This document shows positions 14,253 through 43,956 of a stretch of 64,000 nucleotides of DNA, in pieces. Position 1 is the stretch's first letter, and each line of letters opens with the position of its first letter. The notes under the pieces are model-generated. The model made no database searches. It saw only the letters and a list, made by a program, of their open reading frames with translations, and had not been told where the DNA came from. The translations under genes and the position numbers were made by a program. This DNA is from Microtetraspora niveoalba (GTDB lineage Bacteria; Actinomycetota; Actinomycetes; Streptosporangiales; Streptosporangiaceae). The DNA is taken from the NCBI RefSeq assembly GCF_001570405.1, contig NZ_BBYM01000013.1, positions 1 to 64,000 of the forward strand, written 5' to 3'.

Positions 14253-14310
14253 CAGCCACCCGCCGGATCCGCGGTCTCCGCCACCTGACGGAGCGCCCGA
14301 GAACCATCCA

Positions 14311-15202: not shown

Positions 15203-15228
15203 AAGCTCATTACATCAGCCTGTACGTC

Positions 15229-16852: not shown

Positions 16853-16880
16853 CCAGTTCGGACGGCAGCCGCCGCAGCCC

Positions 16881-17691: not shown

Positions 17692-17766
17692 CTCGCCATC
17701 CCTTCTCTCGCCCTGCTCAGAGCATCTGCTCAAAGCATGCTCAGAGAATAGGAGAACGCCAGTCTC

Positions 17767-17975: not shown

Positions 17976-17976
17976 C

Positions 17977-19109: not shown

Positions 19110-19139
19110 TCTTCTCCTTGCTCTCGTTCGTACGCTCGT

Positions 19140-28036: not shown

Positions 28037-29395
28037 TCACAATCTCCGGTCGGTGGGTTCACCGAAGACCATGGTGTGCCCGAGTGTCCAGCCGGGATCG
28101 CCGGTGCGGGCGAAGCGCACCCAGGCGGCGTGCATCGCGTCGGCCACGGCCTGCGGCGCGCCCGGCCCCGCGGTGCGTTCGACGCCGGGCGCGTCGAGCA
28201 CGTCGAAGACGAAGGGCAGGTCGAGGTTGTGCACCGCGCCCACGCGTCCGCCGCCGACCGGGCTCTCGACGGGCGACTCCCACCGGAACTCGTAGGCGTA
28301 GGCGGGCCTGGCCTCGCGGATCCAGCGCGTCTCGCGGGTGAACAGGTGCTGGGTGAAGGCGCGTCCGACACGCTCGGCGGGTGTGAGGCCGGGTTCGTCG
28401 ACCTGGACGCCGAGGTGGTCGAGCACGGCCTGCGCGGCGGGCTCGTCGAGGTCGGCGACCAGGCGGCGGACGAACACGTCGGCCTCCTGTGAGGTGCAGC
28501 CGACCAGCAGTGGAAGGTGCCCGCTCGCACCTGCGCGCAGGGCGGCCAGCGGGACGGCCGGGATCAGGTCGCCGTCGACGACCGGCTTGACCGGCACCGA
28601 CTCGTTCAGCCCGCCGGAGTCGCCGGTCAGCGGCGGCGGCTGTTCGGCGACGAGCGCCTCCGGGGACAGCCCGGCGAAGGAGGACCTGGTCGGGTCGATC
28701 CCCAGCCGGCCGGCGAGCGTCTTGGCGTAGTCGCCCGCCTCCTGCTCGGTGGCGACCAGGTTGGCCGAACCGCTCATCACGATCGCGCGCCGGAACAGCC
28801 CTTCGGCGCGCGGCATCGTCAGCAGGGTGGCGACGGCGGCGCCGCCCGCCGACTGCCCGGCGATCGTCACGTTGCCGGGGTCGCCGCCGAAGGCCGCGAT
28901 GTTGTCGCGTACCCATTCCAGCGCGGCCAGCCAGTCGAGGACGCCCCGGTTGAGCGGGGCGTCCTCCAGGGCCAGGAAGCCCTCGAAGCCGAGCCGGTAG
29001 TTGACGGCCACGCAGACCACGCCGTCGCGGGCGAAGCGGGTGCCCTGGTGCCAGGCCGCCCCGTTGCCGCCGATGGAGAACGCGCCGCCGTGGATCCAGA
29101 CCAGGACGGGCAGCCCGGCCGGGCCGGTCTCAGGGGTGCGCACGTCGAGGTTGAGGCAGTCCTCGCCGACCTCGAAGACGTCGGGCGCGTACAGGCCGAT
29201 GTCCTCACCGGCCGCCTGCGGGGCGGCAGGGCCGCGCGTGACGGCGGGCCGTACGCCGTCCCACGCGGGTGGCGGGACGGGCGCGCCGAAGCGGTGCTCG
29301 CCGAAGGGCGGGGCGGCGTACGGCACGCCGAGGAAGGCGAGCACGCCCTCCTCGGCCCTGCCCTCGACCAGCCCGGCGGTGGTTCGCACGATCAT
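28037..29395 (-). CDS. Type-B carboxylesterase, last gene of ABC/esterase operon
   Basis: A 452-aa carboxylesterase. Oxyanion motif HGGAFSIGG at about 102-110, nucleophile Ser182 in AGQSAGGAA, and conserved EDCLNLDV near 78. The catalytic His region is VGAVHNLDLPFVFD. No signal peptide, so it acts in the cytosol on an imported ester. ATGA overlap with the M28 gene upstream. It closes the operon esterase-SBP-permease-permease-M28-carboxylesterase, which implies sequential hydrolysis of an imported compound. Confidence 0.9.
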   Translation of the reverse strand: MIVRTTAGLVEGRAEEGVLAFLGVPYAAPPFGEHRFGAPVPPPAWDGVRPAVTRGPAAPQAAGEDIGLYAPDVFEVGEDCLNLDVRTPETGPAGLPVLVWIHGGAFSIGGNGAAWHQGTRFARDGVVCVAVNYRLGFEGFLALEDAPLNRGVLDWLAALEWVRDNIAAFGGDPGNVTIAGQSAGGAAVATLLTMPRAEGLFRRAIVMSGSANLVATEQEAGDYAKTLAGRLGIDPTRSSFAGLSPEALVAEQPPPLTGDSGGLNESVPVKPVVDGDLIPAVPLAALRAGASGHLPLLVGCTSQEADVFVRRLVADLDEPAAQAVLDHLGVQVDEPGLTPAERVGRAFTQHLFTRETRWIREARPAYAYEFRWESPVESPVGGGRVGAVHNLDLPFVFDVLDAPGVERTAGPGAPQAVADAMHAAWVRFARTGDPGWTLGHTMVFGEPTDRRL

Positions 29396-30714
29396 GCCCG
29401 GCGCCATCCGGCCGTCCCTTCGACGATTCTGATCGCCGCCCGGGTGAGCGGCTCGAGGCCGGCCTCGTACACCTTGTCGACGGTGTCGGCCGAGTCGAAC
29501 AGGTACATGGGAGCCGACAGGAAGTGCACGAGCGGCACCCCTTCGGGGTGGAAGAAGGCCCCGTCGGTGGGCGGCATCGGGGAGAACACGTCCGGCGGCA
29601 GCACGAACGAGCGTCTCAGGTCCTCCGCGACGAGGGCCGCCGCCACCAGGCTCTCCAGCTCCGGCTTCCTGGTGGTGAACCACCAGCCGGGTTCGGGGTC
29701 GCCGGTGGGCACCAGCTCGCCGTCCACGACCACGCACCGCTGGGCGGCGTGCTCCAGGTGGAGCTGGAGCACGACGTCGCCCAGCAGACCGCGGTTCTCC
29801 TCGATGAAGGCCCGGGTGCCGGCGGCGTGCGCCATGTGACCCGCGGTCAGCAGGAAGATCAGGTTGTGCGGCCGGTCCCGCTCGGGCACGCCCGCCCAGT
29901 ACCGGGCGGCGGCCAGCACCAGCGCGATCCCCGAGGCGTCCTCGACGGCCGAGGCCCAGGGCGCGTCGTGGTGCGAGCCGATGATCACCCACTGGTCGGA
30001 GCGACCGGGGAGCGTGCCGATCACGTTGTGCGAGACGGCCGGGCCCGTCTCCGACTCGACGGTGAGCGTGCCCGTGCAGGGGCCCTCGTCGACCAGGTCG
30101 AGCACCCGCCGCGAGTCGCCGCCCGACAGCCAGACGGCCGGGAGGTCGCGGTGCACGGCGTCGTAGGGCACGTAGTAGTCGCGCGTCTCCCACGGCACCC
30201 CGGTCAGCGCCCCCGCGAAGGCGGCGGCGCCGCCGTCCATGACGCCCTGGATGACGTCGAGGTAGTCGAGCTGGAACGGCAGCGTCTGGACCAGCTCGTC
30301 GAAGACGCCCTCGGGGTCGTGCACGGCCGTCGCCAGGTCCCTGAGGTAGGACTGCGGCAGCTCGGTGAAGGTGTACTCGGGCACGACGATCGCGCCCGGC
30401 ACGACCTCGCGGCCGACCGACCCGCTCACGGTCGCCTTCGGCGTGGTGTACGGCAGGGCGGACGCCGCCACCCGTACGACTCTCGACGGGTCGGCGTCCA
30501 GGCGCACCACCAGGGCCGCCGTCACCGGCCGCCAGACGGGCAGCTCGACCGGCGCCAGCCGTACGTCGTGGAGCCCGAACTCGGTGAAGCGCTCGGCGGC
30601 CCACGCGGCGGTCCAGTCGTCGGCCGGGTAGCCGGGACGCCTGATTCCCCGCGAGGTGACCGTCTCGATCCACTCCATCATCCGCGCGGCGTCGGGGATC
30701 ATGTCCGGGATCAC
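29392..30714 (-). CDS. Cytosolic M28-family metallopeptidase
   Basis: A protein of about 440 aa of the M28 (aminopeptidase Y/glutamate carboxypeptidase) type. The zinc-site region IIGSHHDAPWASAVEDASGI contains His and Asp ligands, but the order is less canonical than HxD...DDxSG. A PA-like domain (VPEYTFTELPQSYLRDLATA) precedes it. There is no signal peptide. A GTG at 30714 overlaps the permease stop (GTGA) and is taken as start; ATG at 30702 is an alternative. Its presence in a sugar-importer operon suggests the imported substrate carries an amide or peptide bond. Confidence 0.8.
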   Translation of the reverse strand: MIPDMIPDAARMMEWIETVTSRGIRRPGYPADDWTAAWAAERFTEFGLHDVRLAPVELPVWRPVTAALVVRLDADPSRVVRVAASALPYTTPKATVSGSVGREVVPGAIVVPEYTFTELPQSYLRDLATAVHDPEGVFDELVQTLPFQLDYLDVIQGVMDGGAAAFAGALTGVPWETRDYYVPYDAVHRDLPAVWLSGGDSRRVLDLVDEGPCTGTLTVESETGPAVSHNVIGTLPGRSDQWVIIGSHHDAPWASAVEDASGIALVLAAARYWAGVPERDRPHNLIFLLTAGHMAHAAGTRAFIEENRGLLGDVVLQLHLEHAAQRCVVVDGELVPTGDPEPGWWFTTRKPELESLVAAALVAEDLRRSFVLPPDVFSPMPPTDGAFFHPEGVPLVHFLSAPMYLFDSADTVDKVYEAGLEPLTRAAIRIVEGTAGWRRA

Positions 30715-31520
30715 CGTTTCAGCCCTCCGAAGGTGAGCCCCGCCACGTAGTAGCGCTGCAGCGCCACCATCAGGATGAACGGCGGCACGGCGGTGACCAG
30801 TGCCGCGGTGGTGGTCAGGTGATAGGTGAAGCCGACCTCGCTCTGGAAGTTGGCCAGCCCCACCGGCAACGGCCACAGCTCCTGCTCGTTGGCCACGATC
30901 AGCGGCCACAGCAGGTTGTCCCACTGTCCCAGGAAATGCACGAGGAACAGGGTGATGAGCGCGGGCTTGAGCAGCGGCACGGCGATGCGCGCGAAGATGC
31001 GGAACTCCCCCGCGCCGTCGGCCCGCGCGGCCAGCAGCAGCTCCTTCGGGATGCCGAGGGCGAACTGCCGCACCAGGAAGACGCCGAACGCGCTGATCAT
31101 GCCGGGCACCATCATGCCCTGGAAGGTGTTGACCCAGCCGAGTTCCTTCACGATGAGGAAGACGGGGATGACCAGGACCATCGGGGTGAGCGCGAGCGTG
31201 CCGATCACCAGCGCGAACAGGACGCGGCGGCCCGGGAAGGACAACTGGGCCATCGCGTATCCGGCGGCGGCCGAGAAGAGCACGTCCAGGGCGCCGGTGC
31301 CGACGCACAGGATGAGGCTGTTGCGCAGGTAGGTGGGCAGGTTGCCCTCGCCGAACAGCACCCTGATGTTCTCGGGCAGGTGGAAGCCGTTGAAGACCAG
31401 CCCGCGCAGGTCGGTGTCGTCGGGTGCCGAGGCGACGACGAGCATGGCGTAGACCGGCAGCAGCATGAACCCGACCGCGACGATCAGCCAGACGGTGCGC
31501 AGGATCGTTCCCGCTCTCAT
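30711..31520 (-). CDS. ABC transporter permease (MalG type)
   Basis: A 269-aa inner-membrane permease with six helices. The coupling EAA loop reads ELLLAARADGAGEFRIFARI. It matches the second permease of CUT1 carbohydrate importers. The start ATG overlaps the stop of the upstream permease by four bases. It forms the transport channel with the 31517-32440 product; no ATPase is encoded here, as usual in actinobacteria where a shared MsiK-like ATPase serves several systems. Confidence 0.92.
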   Translation of the reverse strand: MRAGTILRTVWLIVAVGFMLLPVYAMLVVASAPDDTDLRGLVFNGFHLPENIRVLFGEGNLPTYLRNSLILCVGTGALDVLFSAAAGYAMAQLSFPGRRVLFALVIGTLALTPMVLVIPVFLIVKELGWVNTFQGMMVPGMISAFGVFLVRQFALGIPKELLLAARADGAGEFRIFARIAVPLLKPALITLFLVHFLGQWDNLLWPLIVANEQELWPLPVGLANFQSEVGFTYHLTTTAALVTAVPPFILMVALQRYYVAGLTFGGLKR

Positions 31521-32440
31521 TCGTCGCCTCCCTTCAGGAACCCGAACTGCAGCGCCGAGACGATCACCATGGCGGCGAGCAGCACCATGCCCATCGCGGC
31601 TGCGTAGCCCATGTGCTCGTAAGGGAAGGCGTTGGCCCAGATGTAGTACGGCAGCACCTGGGTGGCGTCGGCGGGCCCGCCGCCGGTGAGCAGGAAGGCG
31701 GGTACGAACGCCTGCATCGATCCGGCCACCGAGATGACCAGGACGAACAGCAGGGTCCGGCGCAGCAGCGGGAGCGTGGGCCGGGTGAACGTGGTCACCG
31801 CCCCTGAACCGTCGATGGCGGCGGCCTCGTACACCTCGCCGGGCAGCGCCTGCAGCCCGGCGGTCAGGATGATCACGAACAGGCCCATGCTCTTCCAGAC
31901 GACCATCACGACCAGGGCCCAGATGGCCAGGTCGGAGCTGGTCAGCCAGGACTGCGGATCGATCCCGACCAGGCCGAGGAGGGTGTTGGCCAGGCCGCGG
32001 TCGGAGTAGATGATCACCCAGACCATGGACGTCGCGGCGAGCGGCATCACGGCCGGAATCATGACGAGCGCTCTGAGCCCGCGGTTGAGCCGTCCCGGCC
32101 TGCTCAGCGGCACGGCCACCAGCAGGGCCAGCACGATCGTCGGGACGACCGTGCAGACCGTGTAGACGACGGTGATCCACGCCGAGTTGAGGAAGCCGGG
32201 GTCGGCGAACATGCGCTCGTAGTTGGCGAGGCCGATCCAGTTGGGCGTCCCTGCCATCTCGTAGTCGGTGAAGCTGAGATAGATGGCGGCCAGGAAGGGG
32301 ACGAGCCAGAACACGACGAAGAAGACGGCCACCGGGAGGGTCAGCGCCACACCCGCCGTGGCCTCGGGCCGGGCTCTGCCCCTGCCGAGCACGCCCGCCG
32401 TGGCCTGGGGCCGGGCTCTGACCCTGCCGAGCACGCTCAC
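31517..32440 (-). CDS. ABC transporter permease (MalF type) with duplicated N-terminal leader
   Basis: A protein of about 307 aa with six membrane helices and the EAA loop EVYEAAAIDGSGAVTTFTRP. The GTG start overlaps the binding-protein stop (GTGA). The first 30 residues are two near-identical copies of a 14-residue basic segment (VLGR-R-R-ATAG) from a 42-bp tandem duplication, an unusual cytosolic extension. It partners with the MalG-type permease and the lipoprotein upstream. Confidence 0.9.
   Translation of the reverse strand: MSVLGRVRARPQATAGVLGRGRARPEATAGVALTLPVAVFFVVFWLVPFLAAIYLSFTDYEMAGTPNWIGLANYERMFADPGFLNSAWITVVYTVCTVVPTIVLALLVAVPLSRPGRLNRGLRALVMIPAVMPLAATSMVWVIIYSDRGLANTLLGLVGIDPQSWLTSSDLAIWALVVMVVWKSMGLFVIILTAGLQALPGEVYEAAAIDGSGAVTTFTRPTLPLLRRTLLFVLVISVAGSMQAFVPAFLLTGGGPADATQVLPYYIWANAFPYEHMGYAAAMGMVLLAAMVIVSALQFGFLKGGDE
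32352..32435. repeat. 42-bp tandem duplication inside the permease gene
   Basis: Units 32352-32393 and 32394-32435 differ at only two positions. Each encodes 14 residues in frame, so the duplication extends the permease N-terminus without disrupting it. Confidence 0.9.
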
Positions 32441-33690
32441 AGGACCAGTCGCACGGTGGAGTCGAAGGTCGCCGCGGCCTCGGCGGGGGTCGCCTTGCCG
32501 TGGGCGACGGAGTCGACGGCGCCGGCCGCGGCCTTCGCCAGTTCGAGGGTGCCGGGGATGATCGGGCCGAAGTCGACATGCGGAAGGCTGTCGGCGACGA
32601 TCTTCATGATCTCGGACTTGCCGCGCGGCCCGGCGTCGCGCCAGCCCCTGGTCGGGATGATGATGCCGTTGTCGAGGTTGGCGGCCACCGACGGGGCGCC
32701 CTGCAGGTAGTTGACGAGGTGCCAGGCGGTGAACTGGTTGGGCGAGTCCTCGGCCACGCCCCAGCCCCAGGTGTAGGCGGGGACGACGGGCGGGCCGCCG
32801 GCCCAGGTGGGCATGGGCGCGACGCCGTACTGCTCGCCGAAGGTGAGCGTGTCCTTGCCCAGCTTCTCCAGCGCGGGGCCGAGGAAGGCGCCGCTGACGA
32901 CCATGGCGGCCTCGCCGGAGTAGAACAGGCCGAGCGCGCCCAGCGGGTTGGAGAGCTTGGGGTTGCCGATCCCCGACATGTACGTCAGGGCGCCCCGGCC
33001 CTGCTCGGTGGCCAGCGACGCCTTCGTGCCGCCCGCCGTGACGAGCTCGCCGCCCTTGCCCTGGACGAGGGCGGTCAGCATCATGAGGGCCCACTGCGGG
33101 TCGCCGTAGAGCCACTGCAGGCCGACCCGCCTGCCGTCCTTGGAGGTGAGCTTGGCGCTGTACTCGGCGACCTCCTCCCAGGTCGCCGGGGGCTTGTCGG
33201 GGTCGAGCCCGGCCTCCTCGAACCGGTCCTTGCGGTAGTAGAGCATGCAGGGGTTGAAGTCGATGGGCACGCCGTAGGGCACGTCCTGGTAGGTGAGCGG
33301 GGTGGTCGTGCCCGGCTCGTAGTTCTGCAGCGGGAGCGCCTTGGTGTCGACGGGCGCGAGCCGCTTCTTCTTGGCGTGCGCGGGGAAGCTCCAGTGGCCG
33401 ATCTTGAAGACGTCGGGCGGGGCGCCGCCGCTGAAGGCGGTCAGCAGTTTGGCGTCGAGCTGGCCCACGGGCAGGTAGAGCAGCTTCACGTCGACCTTGA
33501 ACTCGGCGATGTAGCGGTGCACGAGCTCCTGGAACTGCTGGCCGGTGTCCTGCGAGCCGTGCAGCCAGACGGTGACCTCGCCGTGCGGCCTGCCGTCCGC
33601 GGCCTGCTGCCGGGGCTGGTCCCTGCCGCATCCGGCGAGCAGGGTGAGCGCGCCGGCGGCGAGTAGCCCACGCCGCGTCAGATCCGCCAT
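32437..33690 (-). CDS. ABC sugar-type substrate-binding lipoprotein
   Basis: A 417-aa extracytoplasmic binding protein. The N-terminus has twin Arg (TRRGLL) and the lipobox LLAGC with Cys21, so it is a lipoprotein, possibly Tat-exported. The family-1 solute-binding features are VTVWLHGSQDTG, FSGGAPPDVFKIGHWSFP and TYTWGWGVAED-like hinge segments. It captures the substrate for the two following permeases. It lies 10 bp downstream of the secreted esterase gene. Confidence 0.92.
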   Translation of the reverse strand: MADLTRRGLLAAGALTLLAGCGRDQPRQQAADGRPHGEVTVWLHGSQDTGQQFQELVHRYIAEFKVDVKLLYLPVGQLDAKLLTAFSGGAPPDVFKIGHWSFPAHAKKKRLAPVDTKALPLQNYEPGTTTPLTYQDVPYGVPIDFNPCMLYYRKDRFEEAGLDPDKPPATWEEVAEYSAKLTSKDGRRVGLQWLYGDPQWALMMLTALVQGKGGELVTAGGTKASLATEQGRGALTYMSGIGNPKLSNPLGALGLFYSGEAAMVVSGAFLGPALEKLGKDTLTFGEQYGVAPMPTWAGGPPVVPAYTWGWGVAEDSPNQFTAWHLVNYLQGAPSVAANLDNGIIIPTRGWRDAGPRGKSEIMKIVADSLPHVDFGPIIPGTLELAKAAAGAVDSVAHGKATPAEAAATFDSTVRLVL

Positions 33691-33700
33691 GGTGGTTCTC

Positions 33701-34558
33701 CTAGGTGAGGTTCTTGAGGGCCTGGTTCTGCCAGGCGGTGTTGGTGGGGAGTTCGGGGGTGCCGCCGGCGAACGCCCCGCGGGCCTGGGTGTCGGCCTGG
33801 AGGCGGTACCTCAGCCAGGCGGTCACGTAGCCGAGGAAGGCCCCGCCGGTGTTCTGGATGTCGTTGTGCCCCGCGCCCTTGAGCAGCGCCCTGCCCGCTC
33901 CGGCGGTGGCCTGGTCGTAGTAGCCCTGCACGGTCGCGGCCGAGGAGATCAGCCAGTCGTTCGCGCCGCTGAGGAAGAGCACCGGGCAGGTCAGGTCGGC
34001 GACGGAGAACTCGTCCCCTGGGCCGGCCATCCACTGCGCGGGCACGGCGATCGGCACGACGGTCTTGATCAGCCCGGCGGAGTGGTTGGCCGCGTTGATG
34101 GATCCGCCCGCGCCCTGGGAGTGGCCGACGGCGGCGACCTGGGCGGTGTTCAGCTTGCCGTGGAAGACGCTGGCGGGGTCGGTGTCGAGGTCGACGAGGT
34201 GCTGGGCGGCGGCGAGGATCTCGGCGCCGGTGCCCGTGGTCGTGTCGGTGGAGGCCACCACCGCGAAGCCCCACGAGGCGAGGTGGTTGAGCAGTCCCGG
34301 ATAGTTGTCGGGGGTGGCCCACGAGCCGTTTCCCCAGGTGACGATCGGGTGGGTGACGCCGCCCGAGCCCAGGGTCTGCGGGTAGTAGAGCCGGTGGCCG
34401 CCCGAGGTGCCGGTGGCGACCGGCCACGGACCCGCCGCCTTGTAGATCGTCTCGATGGTGGAGGCGGCGTCGGCCTCGGTGGTCCACGACAGGAATCCGG
34501 CCGACATGAGGCCGAGCGCCCCTGCCCGCAACGCCTGCCGGCGGGTGAAGTTCTCCAT
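33701..34558 (-). CDS. Tat-exported alpha/beta hydrolase (cutinase/chlorophyllase-like esterase)
   Basis: A 285-aa secreted hydrolase. The Tat signal FTRRQALRAGALG is followed by a hydrophobic segment and an ADAAS cleavage site. The nucleophile elbow is GHSQGAGG with Ser147, and the His lies in AGHNDIQNT; the Asp is probably in SGANDWLIS. It resembles PET-hydrolase/dienelactone-type esterases. The ATG at 34558 has GAGGTGA upstream. First gene of the operon, so the substrate would be de-esterified outside before uptake. Control by the divergent TetR is likely. Confidence 0.85.
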   Translation of the reverse strand: MENFTRRQALRAGALGLMSAGFLSWTTEADAASTIETIYKAAGPWPVATGTSGGHRLYYPQTLGSGGVTHPIVTWGNGSWATPDNYPGLLNHLASWGFAVVASTDTTTGTGAEILAAAQHLVDLDTDPASVFHGKLNTAQVAAVGHSQGAGGSINAANHSAGLIKTVVPIAVPAQWMAGPGDEFSVADLTCPVLFLSGANDWLISSAATVQGYYDQATAGAGRALLKGAGHNDIQNTGGAFLGYVTAWLRYRLQADTQARGAFAGGTPELPTNTAWQNQALKNLT

Positions 34559-34577
34559 GGTCACCTCGTGGGGGGAT

Positions 34578-34603
34578 ATTTGGAGACGTGAACGTCTCCA
34601 AAT
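34578..34603. promoter_or_regulatory. Perfect 26-bp palindromic operator between esterase operon and TetR gene
   Basis: ATTTGGAGACGT (34578-34589) and ACGTCTCCAAAT (34592-34603) are exact inverse complements around 2 bp. It lies in the 69-bp gap between the divergent genes and probably overlaps both promoters, so the TetR product can repress both itself and the operon. Confidence 0.85.
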
Positions 34604-34627
34604 AGAGGGAAGTACGATCGGTGAGCG

Positions 34628-35314
34628 ATGTCAAGACATGAACAGAAGGAAGTTCCGGCGGCCCGGCCACTCCCCAGGGGGCGGCACGGACTCTCCCCCG
34701 ACACGGTGCGCGACTCCCAGCGAGGCCGCCTCGTGGAGGCCATGCTGAGGCTCGTCGCGCGGCGTGGATACGCCGCCACGAGCGTGCCGGACGTGATCGC
34801 CGCCGCGCGGGTCTCGCGCAACGCCTTCTACGCCCAGTTCGCCGACAAGGAGGCGTGCTTCCTCGCCGGATGCGAGCGCGACCTGCCCGAGATGATCGAC
34901 TCGATCCACACGGCCGCGTCGGGGGCGGGCGACCGCTGGCGCGAGGCGCTCCGGCTGGGGATGGCCGCCTACCTGGGGTGGTGGCAGGAGCGCCCGGAGT
35001 ACGCGCAGGCGTACTTCGTGGAGTTGCCGAGGGCGGGTGAGCGGGCCGTCGAGCAGCGTGACGCCGCCTACCGGCCCTTCCTCGACATGTTGGGGGCGCT
35101 GGCCGCGCGGGCCAGGCTGGACGATCCCTCGCTGCCGCCGCTGCGTGCCGCGGTGCCCCGCCTGATCGTCTACGGGATCACCGAGTTCATCGCCTCGGAG
35201 GTGCGTGAGGGCCGCGTCGCCACTCTGACGTCGTCGGCCGGCGACCTCTACCACTACACGGTCGCCCTGCTCGCCGGCCCCGATCACGGCAACGCGACCA
35301 CCCCTTCCGCCTGA
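34628..35314 (+). CDS. TetR-family repressor of the esterase/ABC operon
   Basis: A 228-aa regulator. The HTH SVPDVIAAARVSRNAFYAQF and DKEACFLAG are at about 52-80. The C-terminal half is the helical ligand pocket (LGMAAYLGWWQERPEYAQAY). The ATG at 34628 follows AGTACGATCGGTGAGCG; its 3' end overlaps the convergent glycosidase gene by 31 bp. It probably binds the palindrome 24 bp upstream of its start and is released by the substrate or a hydrolysis product. Confidence 0.88.
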   Translation: MSRHEQKEVPAARPLPRGRHGLSPDTVRDSQRGRLVEAMLRLVARRGYAATSVPDVIAAARVSRNAFYAQFADKEACFLAGCERDLPEMIDSIHTAASGAGDRWREALRLGMAAYLGWWQERPEYAQAYFVELPRAGERAVEQRDAAYRPFLDMLGALAARARLDDPSLPPLRAAVPRLIVYGITEFIASEVREGRVATLTSSAGDLYHYTVALLAGPDHGNATTPSA

Positions 35315-37170
35315 ACCAGCCAGCCTTCGGGGAAGCACTCCTCCGCCGCCATGTGGGCCACGGCGGCCAGCAGGCCGCCGTTGCCCGGCAGGTAGAGGGG
35401 CAGCAGGCCGGGCCACTGGTGGTTGTGGCCGCTGGCCAGGTAGGTGTTCTTCGGGGCGTCCATCAGCAGCGCGTCCACGGCGGTGTCGGGCTCGCCGAGC
35501 CTGGCCGCGCACATGGCGAGCATCGGATAGTCCCAGCCCCAGGTGCTCTCCAGGTCCCAGTCGGCGAGCACGTCGTGCAGGGTGGCCCGCATGGTCTCGG
35601 GGTCGATCAGCGGGGTGGGCGGCACGAACCCGAGCGCGCCGGTCATCGAGGGATGGTCGGTCCTGATCGTGTACGGCTCGACGCCGACGGCCGCGTAGAC
35701 GCCGTCGCGCACCAGCGGCCGGGCCAGGCCGTGCAGGACCCGCGCCCACTCCGGGTCGGGGCCCCGGCCGAGCAGGCCCCGCCACCGCTGGGCCGTCTCC
35801 AGCCCCCACCACCAGTAGGCCAGCTCGAACGTGGGATCGCGCACCGACCGCCTGGACTCGTAGTAGGACTCCTGCGCCGGGACCAGCGGCGGCCCCAGAT
35901 GCCCGCCGCCCGCGAAGGAGGCCATGAACTCGGCCGTCTCGAACACCAGGTCCCGGTAGTCCTCCAGCGCCCCCGGGCGGACCCGGCGGAGCAGCTCGGC
36001 GAAGTAGATCAGGTGCGGCTGCTGCCAGACGATGAAGGCGCCGATCTCACTCGGGCTCTCCCTGCCCTCCGGCCCCACCTGCTTGGGCCAGCGGGCGCCG
36101 CGGAAACCCTGCCGGGCGGCCGTGGCCCTGGCCCGCGGCAGGATCGAGCGGTACCACGGCAGGCTCCGCTCCAGCAGCTCGGGCCTGCCCCACAGGGCGA
36201 AGTGGGCGGCGTGCCACCAGTGCATCTCCAGGTGGAACTTGCCGCTCCAGGAGTTGACGGCCAGCCCGGTCTCCTGGGGCGGGGTGGAGCCCGCGCAGTT
36301 GACCGCGGTGAGGTACTGCGAGAGCACGACCCGGCGTTCGAGCTCGGGCGCTCGCGGGTCGGTGCTGCCGTCGAAGCTCACCGCTCCCCCGCTCGTCCAG
36401 AACCTCTCCCAGTGGGCGGCGGCAGCCGTACGGACCTGGGAGAAGGACGGGAGGGCGGCGCCGACGGGGTGGCGTGCGAACTCGACGACGAGCTCCAGCT
36501 CGTCGCCCTGGATCAGGTACACGTGACCGCCGGGCGACGTGAGCCGGGCCGGCCCCGCCCACTCGGCGGCCACGTGGTATCGGTCCGCGTCCAGGACGCG
36601 GGTGAAGTCGCAGCGCGAGCCGTACGGCGTGCGCGTGAGCGTGTGCGTGGTGGTGTGCCTGTCGGGTTTGTCCCAGTCGGCGGTGGTGTGCCAGCCGTCG
36701 CTGGCGTAGGGGAAGGCGATCCTGATCCCCGCGCCGCCCACGACGCGGATGGCCAGCAGGTCCCGCTCGGGGTGACAGACCGTCTCCACCTCGTACGGCA
36801 GGCCGCCCAGCTCGAAGGAGCTGGACAGCGTGCCGGTCCACAGGTCGAGGGTCTGCGCCGACCGGCCGAGCGGGGCGGCCTCGTCGACGTCGAGGCCGAT
36901 CCGACCGAGATGCAGGCGGTGCGGGTTCACGTGCAGCCAGCCGCCGGCCTCGGTGGCCGGATACAGGTCCGGATAGCCGACGCCGTCGTAGTCGGTGAGC
37001 GCGTCCTCCAGCACGTGGCCCTTGGGGTTGGGCATCGTGTGCCAGCCCCACTGCGCCTGCGTGCCCAGCGGCGCGAAGGTCTGCAGCCCGGTGGCGTCGG
37101 CGGTGAAGGCGAACTCCCCGTTGCCGACGGTGAGCGGGCACCCGGCGTCGGCGATGGTGTGCCGACGCAC
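35284..37170 (-). CDS. Six-hairpin glycosidase-like enzyme
   Basis: A protein of about 628 aa with the (alpha/alpha)6 fold seen in GH65, GH95 and related families. The N-terminal beta-sandwich (GNGEFAFTADATGLQTFAPL) is followed by the barrel segments WSGKFHLEMHWWHAAHFALW (a probable catalytic Glu) and STWGWDYPMLAMCAARLGEP. No signal peptide. The GTG at 37170 has a perfect AGGAGG 6 bp upstream; a longer form from the GTGA overlap at 37194 is possible. It follows the secreted peptidase-like gene in one operon. Probable intracellular hydrolase of an imported glycoside. Confidence 0.75.
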   Translation of the reverse strand: MRRHTIADAGCPLTVGNGEFAFTADATGLQTFAPLGTQAQWGWHTMPNPKGHVLEDALTDYDGVGYPDLYPATEAGGWLHVNPHRLHLGRIGLDVDEAAPLGRSAQTLDLWTGTLSSSFELGGLPYEVETVCHPERDLLAIRVVGGAGIRIAFPYASDGWHTTADWDKPDRHTTTHTLTRTPYGSRCDFTRVLDADRYHVAAEWAGPARLTSPGGHVYLIQGDELELVVEFARHPVGAALPSFSQVRTAAAAHWERFWTSGGAVSFDGSTDPRAPELERRVVLSQYLTAVNCAGSTPPQETGLAVNSWSGKFHLEMHWWHAAHFALWGRPELLERSLPWYRSILPRARATAARQGFRGARWPKQVGPEGRESPSEIGAFIVWQQPHLIYFAELLRRVRPGALEDYRDLVFETAEFMASFAGGGHLGPPLVPAQESYYESRRSVRDPTFELAYWWWGLETAQRWRGLLGRGPDPEWARVLHGLARPLVRDGVYAAVGVEPYTIRTDHPSMTGALGFVPPTPLIDPETMRATLHDVLADWDLESTWGWDYPMLAMCAARLGEPDTAVDALLMDAPKNTYLASGHNHQWPGLLPLYLPGNGGLLAAVAHMAAEECFPEGWLVQAEGVVALP

Positions 37171-37190
37171 GAGCGCCCTCCTGTCGATGC

Positions 37191-38774
37191 TCACGCACAC
37201 CCCGGCGTGCCGGAGGCGCGCTGCTGGCGCATGGTGGTCACGTCGCCCGCGACGTCCGACTGGGCCATCGGGCCGAGGTCGAGCACGACGTCGGTGAAGG
37301 CGAGCGACGCCTTGCGCATCGCCGGCAGGTCGATCGCCTCGGTGCCGAACCGCGGCGAGAACAGCGTCTTGGGCGCGGCGATGGGCGCGATGACGGGCAG
37401 CAGGTGCTGGTTGTACGGCGTGCCCTCGCCGCCGAAGCCGCAATGGTGCGGCACCGTGGCGAGGTCGGCCGCCGACAGGCCCTTGAGGATCGCGGTGCGC
37501 CTCACGTCCCAGTACTGGATGTGGCCCTTGACCAGTTCGCGCAGTGGCGTGCTCTCGCTGACGGGGACCATCAGCAGTTCGGTGAGGGTGGCGTTGGCGA
37601 CGAGTTGCTTGCCCGGCAGGCCGTTCGGCCGGGCGACCGCGTCATAGCGCTTGGCGCCGAGGTGCTCGAGCACGACGACGGAGGAGACCCCGCCCTGGTC
37701 GTACTCGGCGTCGAGCTGGGCGGCGAGCTGACCCGCGCCGCCCTCGCGGACGTCGGGGCCGGTCAGGTGCTGGTAGAGGTGGCCGGTCACGAACGCGAAC
37801 TGCACGGTGCGCGGACGGCACTCCACCGGCAGCGACGACAGGTAGCGGGCCATCTCGATCATGGTGAGCGGGCCGTTGTCCCACACCGGGCTCATGCCGT
37901 CGGTGTGGCTCTCCACGACGATCTTCTGGGCGCTCCCGCCGGGAAGCGTCGCGAGCAGGGTGCGGGTCGTCGTCGGCGTCCAGGCGGCGTTCACGGTCAG
38001 CGCGGCCTGGACCGGCTGCCCGGCGGCCAGCGCGTCCTTGATCTGCTTGCCCTGGTCGGCGCCGACGTACGCGCCCGGCACGCCGTACGGCAGGCCCTCG
38101 TACGGCGCGTACATGCCCTGGATCTGCGCGTGCGGGAGCCGGCTGACCTCGATCACGCCCACCGCGCCCGCGGCGGCGGCCGCCTTGAGGTCGGCGTCGG
38201 CCGCGGCCGGGGCCTCCATCGACTCCGAGCCGAGCAGATTGATCGTGAGGCCCGGGTCGTACATGGAGTAGCCGAGGCCACCGAGCGGATAGAACAGCAG
38301 GTTGGGCACACTGGTCCACGGCAGGTCCCTGACGACGATCTTCCCGGCGGCGTTGGCCGCGGTGATGTTCGTGCCCGCGGCCAGGTGGACGAGCGGCGCC
38401 GAGACGCCGCCCGCGCCGGTGGAGGAGGAGAACGGCACGGGGGCCGCGACCTGCACGGCCGTACCGCCGACGGTCAGGCCGGTGCCGAGGTCGTCCCAGC
38501 GGTCGATGGCGTAGGGCAGGGAGGAGAGCTGGAGGCCGGGGACGGCCGCCATCTCGTCCTCCAGCCAGTCGACGTAGTCGGCGTGCGCGGTGGAGCCGGT
38601 GGGCCTGGGGCCGAACGCCTGCTGCCGCTCGGCCAGGGTGCTCAGGCGGGCCTCGGAGGCGAACGCGGCGGGGTCGACCCTGACCGGGCAGGCCGGAGCG
38701 GCCGCCTGGGCGAAGGCCGGTTGCGCGGGCGCGACCAGCGGGAGGAGAAGGGCGAGGAGAGCGAGTCGTCTCAC
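37191..38774 (-). CDS. Secreted M28-like peptidase with PA domain
   Basis: A 527-aa exported protein. The signal peptide is MRRLALLALLLPLVAPAQPA. A protease-associated domain insert lies at about 190-290 (IEVSRLPHAQIQGMYAPYEG), and the metal-site region VESHTDGMSPVWDNGPLTMI resembles M28. It would trim peptides or amides outside the cell. A LacI-type operator-like sequence is 16 bp upstream. Its overlap with the downstream glycosidase gene shows co-transcription. Confidence 0.75.
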   Translation of the reverse strand: MRRLALLALLLPLVAPAQPAFAQAAAPACPVRVDPAAFASEARLSTLAERQQAFGPRPTGSTAHADYVDWLEDEMAAVPGLQLSSLPYAIDRWDDLGTGLTVGGTAVQVAAPVPFSSSTGAGGVSAPLVHLAAGTNITAANAAGKIVVRDLPWTSVPNLLFYPLGGLGYSMYDPGLTINLLGSESMEAPAAADADLKAAAAAGAVGVIEVSRLPHAQIQGMYAPYEGLPYGVPGAYVGADQGKQIKDALAAGQPVQAALTVNAAWTPTTTRTLLATLPGGSAQKIVVESHTDGMSPVWDNGPLTMIEMARYLSSLPVECRPRTVQFAFVTGHLYQHLTGPDVREGGAGQLAAQLDAEYDQGGVSSVVVLEHLGAKRYDAVARPNGLPGKQLVANATLTELLMVPVSESTPLRELVKGHIQYWDVRRTAILKGLSAADLATVPHHCGFGGEGTPYNQHLLPVIAPIAAPKTLFSPRFGTEAIDLPAMRKASLAFTDVVLDLGPMAQSDVAGDVTTMRQQRASGTPGCA

Positions 38775-38842: not shown

Positions 38843-39853
38843 TCAGAGGCGAGGCGGTCCTGTGGTTCCGCGGACGATCAGCGTGGGCGACACCGACGAC
38901 GTCACCGATCGCGAGCGTCCCTCGATGCGTTCGACGAGCAGGCGCGCGGCGGTCGCCCCGATCACGTGCCCGTCCTGGTCGACGCTGGTGAGGGAGATGC
39001 GCTTGAGCGAGGCGATGCCGATGTTGTCGTATCCGGCGACGGAGAGGTCCTCCGGCACCGACAGGCCCGCCTCGTCGGCGGCGCGCAGCACGCCGAGCGC
39101 CGCGATGTCGGCCCCGGCGAAGATCGCTGTGGGCCGGTCGTCGCGCGCGAGCAGTTCCCGCGCGCCCTCGAAGCCGCCCTCCTCGGTGAAGGAGGTGGCC
39201 AGCACGTCGTCGGCGAGTCCGTGGGCGCGCATCGCCTGGCGGTAGCCTTCGGCGCGCACCGTGTGCGGCAGTCCCTGGGCGCGGGCCCGCTCCAGGTGGG
39301 TGATGTGCGCGATCCGGGTGTGCCCGAGCCCGACCAGGTGGTCGACCACGAGCTTCGCCCCCATCATGTCGTCGTCGACGACCGCGTCGTAGGCCGCGGC
39401 GCCGCCGTGCCTGCCCACCACGACGACCGGGGTGGCCGTCGCGATGGCGGCGAGTTCGGCGTCCGTCATGACCGGCGAGATCAGGATGAGCCCGTCCATG
39501 CTCCGGTCGATCATGGCGTCGGTCATCCTGGCCTGCGTCTTGGGCTCGATCCCGCCGGGTCCGAGCAGCACCTGGTACTCGGTGTCGCCCAGCCGGCCGG
39601 TCACGCCCTCGATGATGTCGGGGAAGAACGGGTTGCGGGTGTCCGAGAGCATGACGCCGAGGGTGTAGGTGCGTCCGCGCAGGGCACGGGCCGCGGCGTG
39701 CGGGCGGTAGCCCAGCTCGTCGATGGCCTGTGTCACCTTGGTCTGCATCTCCGCGCTCACGCCGTAGGCCCCGCGCACCACCTTGGACACGGCGGCCGTG
39801 GAAACCCCGGCCCGCCTGGCCACATCGGCGATCGTCACCCGTCCGCTCGTCAC
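38843..39853 (-). CDS. LacI-family sugar-responsive repressor
   Basis: A 336-aa regulator. HTH RVTIADVARRAGVSTAAVSK at about 5-24, hinge helix RPHAAARALRGRTY, then a periplasmic-binding-like effector domain (LGVMLSDTRNPFFPDIIEGV). It is divergent from the second ABC operon, and the palindrome at 39975-39984 is 120 bp upstream of its start. Likely represses the importer/rhamnosidase operon and possibly the peptidase-glycosidase operon; a sugar from the substrate would be the inducer. Confidence 0.92.
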   Translation of the reverse strand: MTSGRVTIADVARRAGVSTAAVSKVVRGAYGVSAEMQTKVTQAIDELGYRPHAAARALRGRTYTLGVMLSDTRNPFFPDIIEGVTGRLGDTEYQVLLGPGGIEPKTQARMTDAMIDRSMDGLILISPVMTDAELAAIATATPVVVVGRHGGAAAYDAVVDDDMMGAKLVVDHLVGLGHTRIAHITHLERARAQGLPHTVRAEGYRQAMRAHGLADDVLATSFTEEGGFEGARELLARDDRPTAIFAGADIAALGVLRAADEAGLSVPEDLSVAGYDNIGIASLKRISLTSVDQDGHVIGATAARLLVERIEGRSRSVTSSVSPTLIVRGTTGPPRL

Positions 39854-39941: not shown

Positions 39942-39984
39942 TTGACGGGCGATTCTCTCGTGCCCTAACAATGGAGAACGTTCT
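39942..39984 (+). promoter_or_regulatory. Promoter and LacI operator of the second ABC/rhamnosidase operon
   Basis: TTGACG (39942-39947) and TAACAA (39966-39971) form a sigma-70-like promoter with 18-bp spacing. The perfect palindrome AGAACGTTCT follows at 39975-39984, where repressor would block the start site. A related GTAGAACG half-site with an inverted CTAC occurs at about 39868-39882, near the lacI-like gene start. Confidence 0.75.
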
Positions 39985-40017
39985 ACACAATCCCCCTACA
40001 TGAACAGGAGCACGGGC

Positions 40018-41307
40018 GTGAGAGCACCATCTCGTCTGCTCGGCTCGGCGATCGGCGCCGTCCTCGCCCTGTCCCTCTCCGGCTGCGGGTCGTCCGCCCC
40101 GGAGGGGACCGGTCAGGTGAAGCTGACCCTCTGGCACAACAGCGCGGACCCGGCGGCGCTGCTGGAGATGTACAAGAAGTTCGAGAAGCAGTCCGGCCAC
40201 AAGATCGAGCTCGTGTCGATCCCGTCCGACGGCTTCGAGGACACCACCCAGACCAAGTGGGCCACCGGCGACCGCCCGGACATCCTGGAGTACCACGCGA
40301 CGGTGAGCGGCCTGCTCGCCCTCAATCCGGCCGAGAACCTGCGCGACCTGACAGGCGAGGCGTACATCGCCAGGTCCGGCGACCTCTACCAGGCCGCCGG
40401 GTCCGTCGACGGCAAGGTCTACGCCGCCATCACCGGCTTCCCCCAGGTCTTCGGCCTCTACTACAACAAGAAGGTCTTCACCGCGGCCGGGCTGACCCCG
40501 CCCACGAACTTCGCCGAGCTCGCCGGCGCCTGCCCCAAGCTCAAGGCCGCCGGGGTCACGCCGGTCTTCGAGTCGGGCGGGTCGATCTGGCCGGTGCAGA
40601 TCCTGCCCATCCTCTACCTGGCGGGCGCCAACCAGGCCAACGCGTACGGCAAGGCCATCGCGGGCCACAGCAGCACGCTGGCCGACGCCGGCTCGCCCTT
40701 CGTCGCCGGCCTGACGGCCTACGCCAAGCTGAAGGCCGACGGCTGCTTCAACAAGGACATCGTCACCGCCAAGTTCGAGGACTCCATGAAGGCCCTCGTG
40801 ACCGGCGAGGCCGCCATGGTCGCCCAGCACTCCGACATGCTCCCGGCCCTCCTCGCGGCCGCGGGCGGCGACCAGAAGACCGTCGACGAGTCCGTCGGCT
40901 TCGTCGGCCTGTCGAGCGACAAGCCGCTCGTGACCTACGCGCCCGGCCCGATCGGCACGTTCTACCTGCCCAAGACCGGTGACGCGGCGCGGGAGAAGGC
41001 GTCACTCGACTTCGTGCGCTTCATGACCGGCCCGGCCTACGCCGAGTACATCACCGCGTCCAAGACCTTCCCCGTGTTCAAGGACGTGCCCGACCCGCAG
41101 GGCGTCCCGTCCGTGCTGCAGGACGTCAAGAAGGCGTACGACACCGGCGCGGTCATCGCCTTCAACTCCGACATCCCCGGCATGGGCGGGCTGGCCCAGC
41201 TCATGTCCGAGCTGATCGCCGGGCAGAAGGATCCGCAGAAGGCGGCGACCCAGCTACAGGGCCAGGTCGAGCAGGCGGCCAAGGCCGCGGGGCTGCCCGG
41301 ATGGTGA
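40018..41307 (+). CDS. ABC sugar-binding lipoprotein, second system
   Basis: A 429-aa family-1 solute-binding protein. The lipobox LSLSGC gives an N-terminal lipid-anchored Cys at position 23. Binding features are VKLTLWHNSADP, TGDRPDILEYHATVS, FPQVFGLYYNKKVFTAAG. The GTG at 40018 has AGGAG 9 bp upstream; the ATG at 40000 lacks a ribosome site. First gene of the plus-strand operon, immediately after the LacI-controlled promoter. Confidence 0.92.
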   Translation: MRAPSRLLGSAIGAVLALSLSGCGSSAPEGTGQVKLTLWHNSADPAALLEMYKKFEKQSGHKIELVSIPSDGFEDTTQTKWATGDRPDILEYHATVSGLLALNPAENLRDLTGEAYIARSGDLYQAAGSVDGKVYAAITGFPQVFGLYYNKKVFTAAGLTPPTNFAELAGACPKLKAAGVTPVFESGGSIWPVQILPILYLAGANQANAYGKAIAGHSSTLADAGSPFVAGLTAYAKLKADGCFNKDIVTAKFEDSMKALVTGEAAMVAQHSDMLPALLAAAGGDQKTVDESVGFVGLSSDKPLVTYAPGPIGTFYLPKTGDAAREKASLDFVRFMTGPAYAEYITASKTFPVFKDVPDPQGVPSVLQDVKKAYDTGAVIAFNSDIPGMGGLAQLMSELIAGQKDPQKAATQLQGQVEQAAKAAGLPGW

Positions 41308-42155
41308 TGCGGAACAGGGCGGCCTGGCTGCCGTGGGCACTGCCCGCGATCGTGCTGGTCACGGTCTTCTTCGTCGCCCCGTTCCTGCTCAACGTCCGGT
41401 TCGCGTTCTCCTCCTGGACGAGCTTCCGGTCCGAGATCACCTGGAACGGTCTGGAGAACGTCCGCACGCTGATCGACCAGGACCTGCTGGCCAACGCGGT
41501 CACCGTGACCGTGCTGTACGCGATCCTGTGCATGGCGATCCAGAACACGGTCAGCCTCTCGCTGGCCCTGGCCCTCCAGCGGACCAGCGGGATCAACACC
41601 GTCTTCCGCTCGGCGTTCTTCCTGCCGACACTCATCTCGCCGCTGGCCGCCGGATACATCTGGCGCGGCCTGCTCGCCCCCGACGGGGCGGTCAACTCCT
41701 TCCTCGGCATCGAGTGGGCGTGGCTGGGCGAACCGTCCACCGCGCTGGTGGTGGTCGCGTTCATCGACGCGTGGAAGTGGAGCGGGCTGATCACCCTCGT
41801 CTACATCGCGGGCCTCAACTCCATCCCGAAGTCGCTGCTGGAGTCGGCGACCGTCGACGGGGCCGGGCCGTGGACCCGGTTCCGGCGGGTGCTGTTCCCG
41901 ATGCTCGCCCCGGCGCTGACCTTCAACGTGGCGGTCACGCTGGTGGGCGCGCTCAGCGCGTACGACGTGATCGCCGCCACCACCGGCGGCGGGCCCGGCG
42001 ACCACACGCGGGCCCTGAACGTGGTGATGCGCCAGCAGTGGGGGCAGGGCTTCTTCGGCTCCGCCAGCGCGCTGGGGTTCACCGTGACGCTGCTGGTGAT
42101 CGCCACCGCCGTGCCCCTCGTGTGGTGGCTGCGGCGCAGGGAGGTGACGGGATGA
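41301..42155 (+). CDS. ABC transporter permease (MalF type), second system
   Basis: A 284-aa six-helix permease with the coupling loop SLLESATVDGAGPWTRFRRV. Its ATG overlaps the binding-protein gene stop (7 bp). Forms the channel with the next gene. No ATPase gene is present in the operon. Confidence 0.92.
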   Translation: MVMRNRAAWLPWALPAIVLVTVFFVAPFLLNVRFAFSSWTSFRSEITWNGLENVRTLIDQDLLANAVTVTVLYAILCMAIQNTVSLSLALALQRTSGINTVFRSAFFLPTLISPLAAGYIWRGLLAPDGAVNSFLGIEWAWLGEPSTALVVVAFIDAWKWSGLITLVYIAGLNSIPKSLLESATVDGAGPWTRFRRVLFPMLAPALTFNVAVTLVGALSAYDVIAATTGGGPGDHTRALNVVMRQQWGQGFFGSASALGFTVTLLVIATAVPLVWWLRRREVTG

Positions 42156-42970
42156 GAGCGGTCCTCAAGTACACGGCGCTGACGCTCTTCGCGATCCCGT
42201 GGGTGCTCGTGCCCGTCTGGCTCGTGGTCGTCAACTCGTTCAAACCCGCGGGCGAGGCCGCCGAGCTGGGCCTCGGCCTGCCCAGGACGTGGGCGATCGC
42301 CGAGAACTACGGCATCGTGCTCGACCGGGGCGGCTACCTGACGGGGCTGCTCAACAGCCTCAAGGTGACCGTGCCGATCGTGGTGGCCGTGGTGTTCCTC
42401 GGCGCGGCGGCGGCGTGGGCGTTCGGGCGCAGCCGGTCGCGGTGGCTGCAGGCGGCCTACTTCGTGATGGGGCTGTCGATCCTGCTGCCGCCGTCGATCA
42501 TCCCGACCGTCTACCTGCTGCGCGCCCTGTCGCTGGACGGCGGCTCGCTCGGCTACGTGCTGACGATGACCGGCTGCCGCCTGGGCATCGTGATCTTCCT
42601 CGCGACCGGATTCGTCCGGGCGTTCCCCCGCGACCTGGAGGACGCCGCCGCCATCGACGGCGCCTCCCGCCCGCAGGTCTTCGTCCGCATCCTGCTGCCC
42701 CTGCTGCGGCCGGTGCTGTTCGTCGGCGGCGTGATCCTGATCATCAACGTCTGGAACGACTTCTTCTTCGCCCTCTTCCTGCTCCAGGGCAGCGCGAACG
42801 CCACGCTGCCGCTGAGCCTGTTCCAGTTCGCCTCCGGCACCTTGCAGAGCCTCAACTGGAACCTCGTCTTCGCCCACGTCCTGCTCACCACGCTGCCCCT
42901 CGTGGCGGTGTACGTCATCGCGCAGAAGCGCGTCCTGGCCGGCCTTACGGAAGGTGCACTGAAGGGATGA
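42152..42970 (+). CDS. ABC transporter permease (MalG type), second system
   Basis: A 272-aa permease with EAA loop DLEDAAAIDGASRPQVFVRI and six membrane helices. ATGA overlap with the upstream permease and with the downstream serine hydrolase gene. Completes the membrane part of the importer. Confidence 0.92.
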   Translation: MRAVLKYTALTLFAIPWVLVPVWLVVVNSFKPAGEAAELGLGLPRTWAIAENYGIVLDRGGYLTGLLNSLKVTVPIVVAVVFLGAAAAWAFGRSRSRWLQAAYFVMGLSILLPPSIIPTVYLLRALSLDGGSLGYVLTMTGCRLGIVIFLATGFVRAFPRDLEDAAAIDGASRPQVFVRILLPLLRPVLFVGGVILIINVWNDFFFALFLLQGSANATLPLSLFQFASGTLQSLNWNLVFAHVLLTTLPLVAVYVIAQKRVLAGLTEGALKG

Positions 42971-43956
42971 CCACTCACGACATCGCGCTCGACTGGGTCA
43001 GGCGCGAGATCAAGGAGGGGCGGCTGCCGTGCGCGGTGTTCGGCGCCGCCACCTCCGACGGGATCCAGGTGCTGGAGGCGTTCGGCGAGCACGACGGCCG
43101 GGAGACCAGGACCGGGGACCACTTCGCGCTGTTCTCGGTGACCAAGCCGCTGGTGGGGCTGGCCGCCCTGCGCCAGGTCGAGCGCGGGCTGCTGTCGCTG
43201 CGCCGCCCGCTGCGGGACGTACTGCCGAACTTCGCGCGGCCCGACGTGACGCTCTGGCACCTGCTCACCCACACCAGCGGCATCGCCGAGCAGACGCTCA
43301 CGCCCGACGACCTGCTGGAGCACCTCGTCACCGCGCCGTCGATGTTCGAGGCGGGCACGCTCAGCCATTACTCCAACCTGGCCTTCGCCGGGATCGCGGA
43401 GATGGTCCGCGACGTCACGGGCCGCGACGTGGCCGACGTGATCGACTCCGACCTGAACACGCTGGTGCCGGGCGGCGGGCGGATCACGTTCGACCCGGCG
43501 TGCGACGCGGCCGAGGTCCACGGCATGGAACTGCTCGGGCCCGGCTTCGACTTCGACACGTTCGTACGGCTCCGCCACCCGGCGGGGGCGCTGTTCTCCC
43601 GGGCCGAGGACCTCCTGGCGCTGGGCGGGGCGCTGCTGCGCGGCGACCGCGGACTGATCCACCCGACCACCCTGGCCGCCATGACGACCCCGCAGACGAC
43701 GGGCCTGGTCAAGCTGCAGCCCGACCCGGTCAACGCCGGGCAGGACTGGGGTCTCACCTGGAACCTGCGCCACTCGGCTCCCGGGCTGCTCGAGCGGCGG
43801 CTGTACGGGCACGGCGGTGCCTCGGGGTGCCAGTGGTGGATGTACCCGGAGCAGGACGCGTGCTTCGTGCTGCTGATCAACGTGATGGCGCCGAGCCTGT
43901 ACGGCGTCGACGTCGACGGTCTGCACAACGCCTTCACCACCGGGCTCGATGCGTGA
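42967..43956 (+). CDS. Serine hydrolase of the beta-lactamase/class C type
   Basis: A 329-aa hydrolase. SxxK motif SVTK (Ser57, Lys60), tyrosine motif HYSN (Tyr135-Ser-Asn), and third-box equivalent YGHGGASG. No signal peptide, so it is cytosolic and unlikely to be a resistance enzyme; such members are esterases or amidases (EstB-like). Located between importer and rhamnosidase, it probably removes an acyl group from the imported glycoside. Confidence 0.88.
   Translation: MTTHDIALDWVRREIKEGRLPCAVFGAATSDGIQVLEAFGEHDGRETRTGDHFALFSVTKPLVGLAALRQVERGLLSLRRPLRDVLPNFARPDVTLWHLLTHTSGIAEQTLTPDDLLEHLVTAPSMFEAGTLSHYSNLAFAGIAEMVRDVTGRDVADVIDSDLNTLVPGGGRITFDPACDAAEVHGMELLGPGFDFDTFVRLRHPAGALFSRAEDLLALGGALLRGDRGLIHPTTLAAMTTPQTTGLVKLQPDPVNAGQDWGLTWNLRHSAPGLLERRLYGHGGASGCQWWMYPEQDACFVLLINVMAPSLYGVDVDGLHNAFTTGLDA

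Follow-up and report, generated by a model that had tools for sequence, protein, structure and literature searches.

What does a cell take up through a CUT1-type ATP-binding cassette (ABC) sugar importer whose genes stand between two esterase genes and an M28-family gene? This question is raised by a locus of Microtetraspora niveoalba, in a window of 64,000 nucleotides (positions 1 to 64,000 of contig NZ_BBYM01000013.1, assembly GCF_001570405.1) that was analysed as a whole. The original prediction had described an importer operon probably under a TetR-family regulator, without LacI or glycosidases, that may serve a non-sugar ester or amide compound. We find that the operon belongs to a 15-gene block that also includes TetR, a protein resembling glycoside hydrolase (GH) family GH65, a second M28-like protein (M28b), LacI, a second CUT1 operon and a GH78 enzyme. 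We hold, at a probability of roughly 0.56, that the locus digests an ester-decorated (acylated) L-rhamnoside and comprises two regulons, the operon forming one of its arms. Families, overlaps, a regulatory palindrome and co-location were computed; we infer the substrate, the specificities, the inducers and the order of steps.

The operon consists of six genes on the minus strand (34564-28037); its end had been placed correctly, while its start moves from 34558 to 34564. The first gene (33701..34564) encodes a PETase/cutinase-like esterase (PF12740, PETase, 1e-13) with a GHSQG nucleophile motif (S149), H233 and, as judged by eye like all N-termini of window proteins reported here, a twin-arginine (Tat)-type N-terminus (TRRQAL and a hydrophobic stretch). 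It shares its family match and the GHSQG motif with PETase/cutinase-like hydrolases (nearest PDB entry 2fx5, 'lipase', 5.5e-40), and unlike them lies in what appears to be a glycoside catabolic operon; polyesterase activity is putative. Next come a substrate-binding protein, SBP1 (32437..33690; PF01547, SBP_bac_1, 6.6e-34), and the CUT1 permeases F (31517..32440; PF00528 3e-14, scored on 31517-32416) and G (30711..31520; PF00528 2.3e-15). The SBP1 N-terminus, MADLTRRGLLAAGALTLLAGC, combines an RR motif with the lipobox LAGC and is of lipoprotein type, and the closest PDB entries are 5ci5, followed by the acarbose/maltose-binding GacH. Permease F starts at a GTG at 32440, overlapping the SBP1 stop by 4 nt. 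The last two genes encode M28a (29392..30714), an M28-fold protein with a non-canonical active site (PF04389 9e-8, 32.5 bits against a cut-off of 21.3), and a type-B carboxylesterase (28037..29407; PF00135, COesterase, 1.3e-91) with GQSAGG, Glu and His serine-hydrolase motifs; no signal peptide was seen at either N-terminus. Since the junctions are spaced at +10, -4, -4, -4 and -16 bp from first gene to last, the six genes very likely form one transcript. The predicted combination of an importer, two esterases and an M28-family gene thus stands, each part being supported by Pfam, the genes overlapping or abutting, and the gene order recurring in relatives.

A family-1 binding protein with two BPD_transp_1 permeases in a single operon is the architecture of a CUT1 importer. 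An MsiK-like ATPase with ABC_tran and OB_MalK (MalK OB-fold) domains is encoded elsewhere in the genome (at G000:C14), 88% identical to a relative's protein that we took for MsiK by eye, and we infer that an ATPase of this type serves the importer, as a putative pairing. Actinomycete CUT1/MsiK sugar-uptake operons are normally under LacI control. The present locus resembles them in its SBP lipoprotein with two permeases, its ATPase encoded elsewhere and the glycosidases nearby, and differs from them in having TetR for LacI on one arm and two esterases with an M28-fold protein in the operon.

The prediction that TetR regulates the operon is a good one. A TetR-family gene (34628..35314, plus strand; PF00440, TetR_N, 3.3e-12) is divergent from the operon, and the gap between it and the PETase gene holds a predicted operator, the perfect 28-bp palindrome TATTTGGAGACG-TGAA-CGTCTCCAAATA (34577..34604; arms 12-4-12). 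The palindrome core, GACGTTCACGTC, is conserved in all 14 sequences compared (the window and 13 relatives with the block), and a degenerate copy is visible in a further genome, G140. With up to three mismatches allowed, the 24-bp centre is found at a single place in the 8.47-Mb draft genome. Because the palindrome is conserved in the divergent promoter region, TetR very likely controls the esterase/importer operon.

LacI, which had been taken to be absent, is encoded in the same conserved block (38843..39853, minus strand; PF00356/PF13377). The gap between LacI and SBP2, the binding protein of the second CUT1 operon, carries a predicted LacI operator, TGGAGAACGTTCTACA (39972..39987), and a LacI-type site, AGAACGTTCT, is present there in 13/13 extracted sequences, a set that leaves out L064 and includes over-long slices of L052 and L055 with the site at the expected place (L and G numbers are our handles for loci and genomes). 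Upstream of M28b, an AACG[A/T]TT site occurs in 11 of the 12 sequences extracted without L052 and L055, the exception being L064. As the TetR palindrome and the LacI-type sites occupy separate places, the block probably contains two regulons, each defined by predicted sites.

The LacI gene, the GH65-like gene and the GH78 operon all lie within ~12 kb of the six-gene operon, so that the predicted lack of a glycosidase holds for those six genes and fails beyond them. The GH78 operon, on the plus strand, consists of SBP2 (40000..41307; PF01547 2.2e-22), a second permease F (41301..42155; PF00528 8.3e-12) and permease G (42152..42970; PF00528 1.9e-13), a beta-lactamase-fold serine hydrolase (42967..43956; PF00144 3.7e-39; SxxK motif SVTK) that presumably acts as an esterase, and a GH78 alpha-L-rhamnosidase (44073..46574) that matches PF17389 (9.9e-105), PF08531, PF05592 and PF17390, each above its cut-off; no signal peptide was seen at the N-terminus of the rhamnosidase. 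Convergent with GH78 and beside a PadR regulator is a further candidate esterase, a GDSL-like lipase (46707-48184, minus strand) that borders the block. On the minus strand, M28b (37191..38774) has a Sec-type N-terminus and is a homologue of M28a (27% identity over 149 residues). The GH65-like protein (35284..37200, minus strand) is a putative intracellular glycosidase or phosphorylase. Its GH65 match in Pfam reaches 16.4 bits, under the cut-off of 27, no other Pfam model exceeds its own cut-off, the match to the PDB GH65 entry 4ktr has an E-value of 0.0016, and the AlphaFold2 model is poor (predicted local distance difference test, pLDDT, 48.5). CUT1 permease homologues accompany its relatives (L228-L237) in 8 of the 10 stretches read; L232 has no CUT1 permease and L233 only a binding-protein-like gene (by eye). 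Within this family, which recurs in actinomycete CUT1 sugar operons, Glu325 and Glu444 are invariant.

We further note that the block is conserved among relatives. It was counted over 18 distinct genomes, each taken once (L052-L064, G263, G264, G168, G062 and the window), and is full in 15 and reduced in 3. Thirteen of these (L052-L064) come from the best 80 of 112 loci found for M28a and, within the reach of their flanks, carry the block from the carboxylesterase up to SBP2, or up to LacI in L064. GH78 is present in 12/12 genomes read that far (the window, G038, G188, G096 and eight others); in six of the 18 (L052, L053, L057, L058, L059 and L061) the stretches read stop short of it. The three reduced loci (G264, G168 and G062) run GH78-hydrolase-permeases-SBP2-LacI-M28b-PETase, followed by an acyl-CoA ligase, and the GH65-like gene, TetR, SBP1, permeases F and G, M28a and the carboxylesterase were not found in the stretch read. 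A tree of LacI, M28b and PETase has support values of 22-97, mostly weak, and cannot order gains and losses or show a single origin of the reduced clusters.

The block has likely moved horizontally within the family, judged against a single yardstick gene, because its proteins are 93-99% identical to those of the window in G188 and G263 and 93-98% in G269, where the MsiK-like ATPases are 89%, 89% and 88% identical. This suggests recent spread across genera. The same argument was dropped for G292 (cluster 88-97%, ATPase 88%) and G313 (81-96%, 87%), which show no clear excess, as their cluster identities are not all above that of the ATPase.

Clues to the substrate come from the neighbours of the block in these relatives, whose flanks reach mostly ~8.6 kb past the carboxylesterase (0.8 kb in L061). 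In 10 of the 18 genomes an acyl-CoA ligase comes next: it is separated by 1 bp from the carboxylesterase in L056, L057, L058, L061 (where the contig end cuts it), L062 and L063, and directly follows the carboxylesterase in G263 and PETase in G264, G168 and G062. Its presence suggests that the released acid is larger than acetate. L-rhamnose catabolic genes are found in the flanks of four genomes, adjoining the carboxylesterase in L052 and L053 and lying ~4.5 kb further in L055, and in G264 they end the run PETase, ligase, LacI, RhaI, RhaD, RhaB. In L052, RhaI (TIGR02635, 640.9) and RhaD (TIGR02632, 1033) score above their NCBIfam cut-offs, and RhaB under its own.

Orthologues of the importer in other genomes add a third neighbourhood. 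In 10 of 12 stretches read, out of 27 matches, they head an operon of the order SBP-permF-permG-GH94-ROK-SIS-SDR-FAD-PTE; the remaining two (~40%) have an ABC ATPase-like neighbour gene and enzymes named by eye. SBP identities are 51-55% and permease identities 63-71%, and PETase and M28a adjoin the GH94 operon at nine loci (L066-L073 and L075). This operon is conserved in Nonomuraea, for example at L071:796-9100. Unlike the window, it is preceded by a GntR-type gene (confirmed by Pfam for G122 alone), and combines a GH94-type enzyme with oxidoreductases, where the window has the GH65-like protein, GH78 and the carboxylesterase instead. Together, the ligase, rhamnose-gene and GH94-operon neighbourhoods point to a glycoside bearing ester groups.

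These neighbourhoods bear directly on the proposal that the importer takes up a non-sugar polyester or lipopeptide-like oligomer. The sharing of one operon by a PETase-like esterase, a carboxylesterase and an M28-fold protein speaks for such a substrate. Against it, the block includes LacI, GH78 and the GH65-like gene, rhamnose genes lie nearby in 4/18 genomes, the importer orthologues are accompanied by GH94 and a ROK kinase, and M28a does not conserve the M28 catalytic residues. Given the sugar genes in the block and beside the importer orthologues, we rejected a non-sugar substrate as the principal explanation and consider it very unlikely. Of the substrate originally proposed, the ester chemistry stands, and an amide or peptide is not implied, since in M28a the catalytic Glu of M28 enzymes is missing, as are two of the metal ligands.

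Digestion of an acylated rhamnoside would begin outside the cell, where the PETase-like esterase, exported via Tat, and M28b, exported via Sec, would trim the substrate. The two CUT1 importers, powered by the MsiK/MalK-type ATPase encoded elsewhere, would carry rhamnoside fragments in; the carboxylesterase, M28a and the beta-lactamase-fold hydrolase would then strip the remaining acyl groups, and GH78 and the GH65-like protein would cleave the sugars. An acyl-CoA ligase, adjacent in relatives, could activate the released acid, and rhamnose could enter the RhaI-RhaB-RhaD route, which is encoded near the block in some relatives and of which RhaI is encoded elsewhere in the window's genome. TetR would sense one product and control the esterase/importer/M28a arm, and LacI would sense a sugar and control the rhamnosidase and M28b arm.

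Several observations weigh against this reading. The window contains neither the ligase nor rha genes, and the flanks of 14/18 genomes showed no rha genes. The best NCBIfam match of the ligase, 'fatty acid CoA ligase family' (NF009233), scores 793.7 bits where the cut-off is 832, and the class of the acid is therefore uncertain. The GH65-like family assignment is weak. PETase lies within the flanks of 25 of the 80 M28a loci, which favours the reading, and was not found in those of the other 55, some of which are short. Counts over the 18 genomes are not independent, because they represent one family with partly horizontal spread. In G140, TetR, PETase and M28a occur without SBP1 and its permeases, beside another binding-protein gene, and in L059 (Nonomuraea spiralis) the block is followed at 13100-19882 by GFO/IDH/MocA, amidohydrolase and galactarate/altronate dehydratase genes, together with genes of mannitol-dehydrogenase and glucosamine-6-phosphate-isomerase type; a sugar-acid or amino-sugar route is possible for the latter locus. 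Finally, a LacI-type site was sought in the TetR/PETase gap and found in 0/14 sequences, and both arms may for this reason answer to different compounds.

The last point raises the unlikely alternative that the block joins two catabolic systems by position alone, one under LacI for a rhamnoside and an ester system under TetR that serves another compound. That each regulator has a predicted operator of its own would fit this arrangement, as would the three genomes in which the TetR arm is not in the stretch read, and G140, where TetR, PETase and M28a have no LacI match in the 32 kb read. A functional tie between the arms is favoured by the position of PETase, which comes after M28b in the three reduced loci and is the first gene of the TetR operon in the 15 full loci, by the homology of M28a and M28b, and by the occurrence of the full block together in 15 of 18 genomes.

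The G140 neighbourhood and the sugar-acid genes of L059 also keep in play a system for oligosaccharides of pectin (rhamnogalacturonan), whose acetyl, methyl or feruloyl groups the esterases would take off. In G140, M28a-PETase-TetR has two GH28 proteins, a melibiase and a fucosidase-like protein nearby and a partial GH78-like match ~16 kb away; the dehydratase, mannitol-dehydrogenase-family and GFO/IDH/MocA genes lie downstream in L059; and two stretches with GH65-like relatives hold MR/MLE, DHDPS or GFO/IDH genes (where checked). We regard pectin as unlikely: neither GH28 nor a polysaccharide lyase is among the 15 block genes, inspection of the flanks of L052-L064 by eye, aided by a few Pfam checks, revealed sugar-acid genes only in L059, and the ligase in 10/18 genomes speaks for an acid larger than acetyl groups would yield.

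If an acylated rhamnoside is indeed the substrate, the block provides a concrete set of genes by which rare actinomycetes would break down such compounds (glycolipid surfactants, acylated rhamnosides of plants or microbes), and two regulators with likely DNA sites come with it. A bolder and quite unlikely version is that the partly horizontally spread system scavenges a rhamnolipid-like glycolipid (rhamnose with ester-linked hydroxy fatty acids) and that M28a and M28b are multi-phylum M28-fold ester/amide hydrolases that use one metal only, on the His-Asp-Glu side, and have His for the catalytic Glu. In a literature search that left most subscription journals outside, we recognised no paper naming the cluster, a rhamnolipid catabolic gene cluster or the M28 variant.

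The M28 peptidase named in the original prediction is of a different kind. The AlphaFold2 model of M28a (pLDDT 96.3) has M28 metallopeptidases as its closest folds and matches them over its full length (BSAP, 6hc7 and 6hc6, 2ek8 and 3iib; VIA Z 31.6-34.7), and a viral fold search gave distant M28 matches only. We aligned the window protein with 43 of 75 called relatives, hand-picked for diversity (5/80 loci gave no call); PF04389 matches 43 of these 44 at E 0.001. His248, Asp259, His293, Met294, His319, Glu321, His322 and Asp384 are invariant in 44/44, and position 385 is Gly in 37 and Ala in 7. The conservation of His248 to Trp253 is partly selected, because one of the two search patterns included SHHD[AG]PW; the remaining positions are unaffected.

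Residues were mapped by a MAFFT alignment that included L243 and L244, two canonical proteins among the 11 M28 matches in this genome. In it the Glu-Glu pair falls on His293-Met294 and the last His on Gly385, and one HMMER alignment agrees for the pair. A first HMMER mapping, which put Gly292-His293 on the Glu pair, was shifted by one and was overruled by the second HMMER alignment and MAFFT; Gly292 is likewise not Glu. The metal sites of M28 enzymes are given as His, Asp, Glu, Asp and His in the site table of PMC7522609. Compared with that table, M28a keeps sites 1 (His248) and 2 (Asp259), as in BSAP, 2ek8, 3iib and the Aeromonas aminopeptidase (1amp), and has an acidic site 4, Asp to Glu321, an assignment that rests on the shifted HMMER alignment and is unclean in MAFFT. 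Unlike these metallopeptidases, it has in 44/44 sequences His293 in place of the catalytic Glu, Met294 for the site-3 Glu and Gly or Ala385 for the site-5 His.

With the catalytic Glu and metal ligands replaced, M28a is not an ordinary M28 peptidase and should not be named as one. The complete conservation of the substituted positions argues for an active site that works but is different. Nicalin, an M28 relative from the profile search, is also without the Glu pair in the alignment shown, and so M28a may instead have a non-catalytic role. PDB entry 2anp is titled as an M28 enzyme that is functional with Glu151 mutated to His. M28b carries the same GH and LEH motifs as M28a and is unmatched by Pfam M28 at E 0.1. 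A wider group of M28b-like proteins (L044, L045, L046 and L148-L151) has GH (AH in L045) and EH motifs; L045 is without the first metal His and is unmatched by Pfam M28.

The substitutions suggest that among the proteins automatically named 'M28 family peptidase' there is a distinct type of active site, here in records labelled from Actinomycetes to Chloroflexi and Gammaproteobacteria. Such a type is relevant to annotation and might represent new chemistry. Beyond the family of the 18 genomes, acyl-CoA ligases close to M28a (L095, L107 and L125) and carboxylesterases near distant M28a proteins (L076, L078, L101, L109, L119 and L125) were too few to argue from. At Streptomyces loci (L079-L091 and L100), the M28a homologue often lies near a modular polyketide synthase and an AMP-dependent ligase, as recognised by eye.

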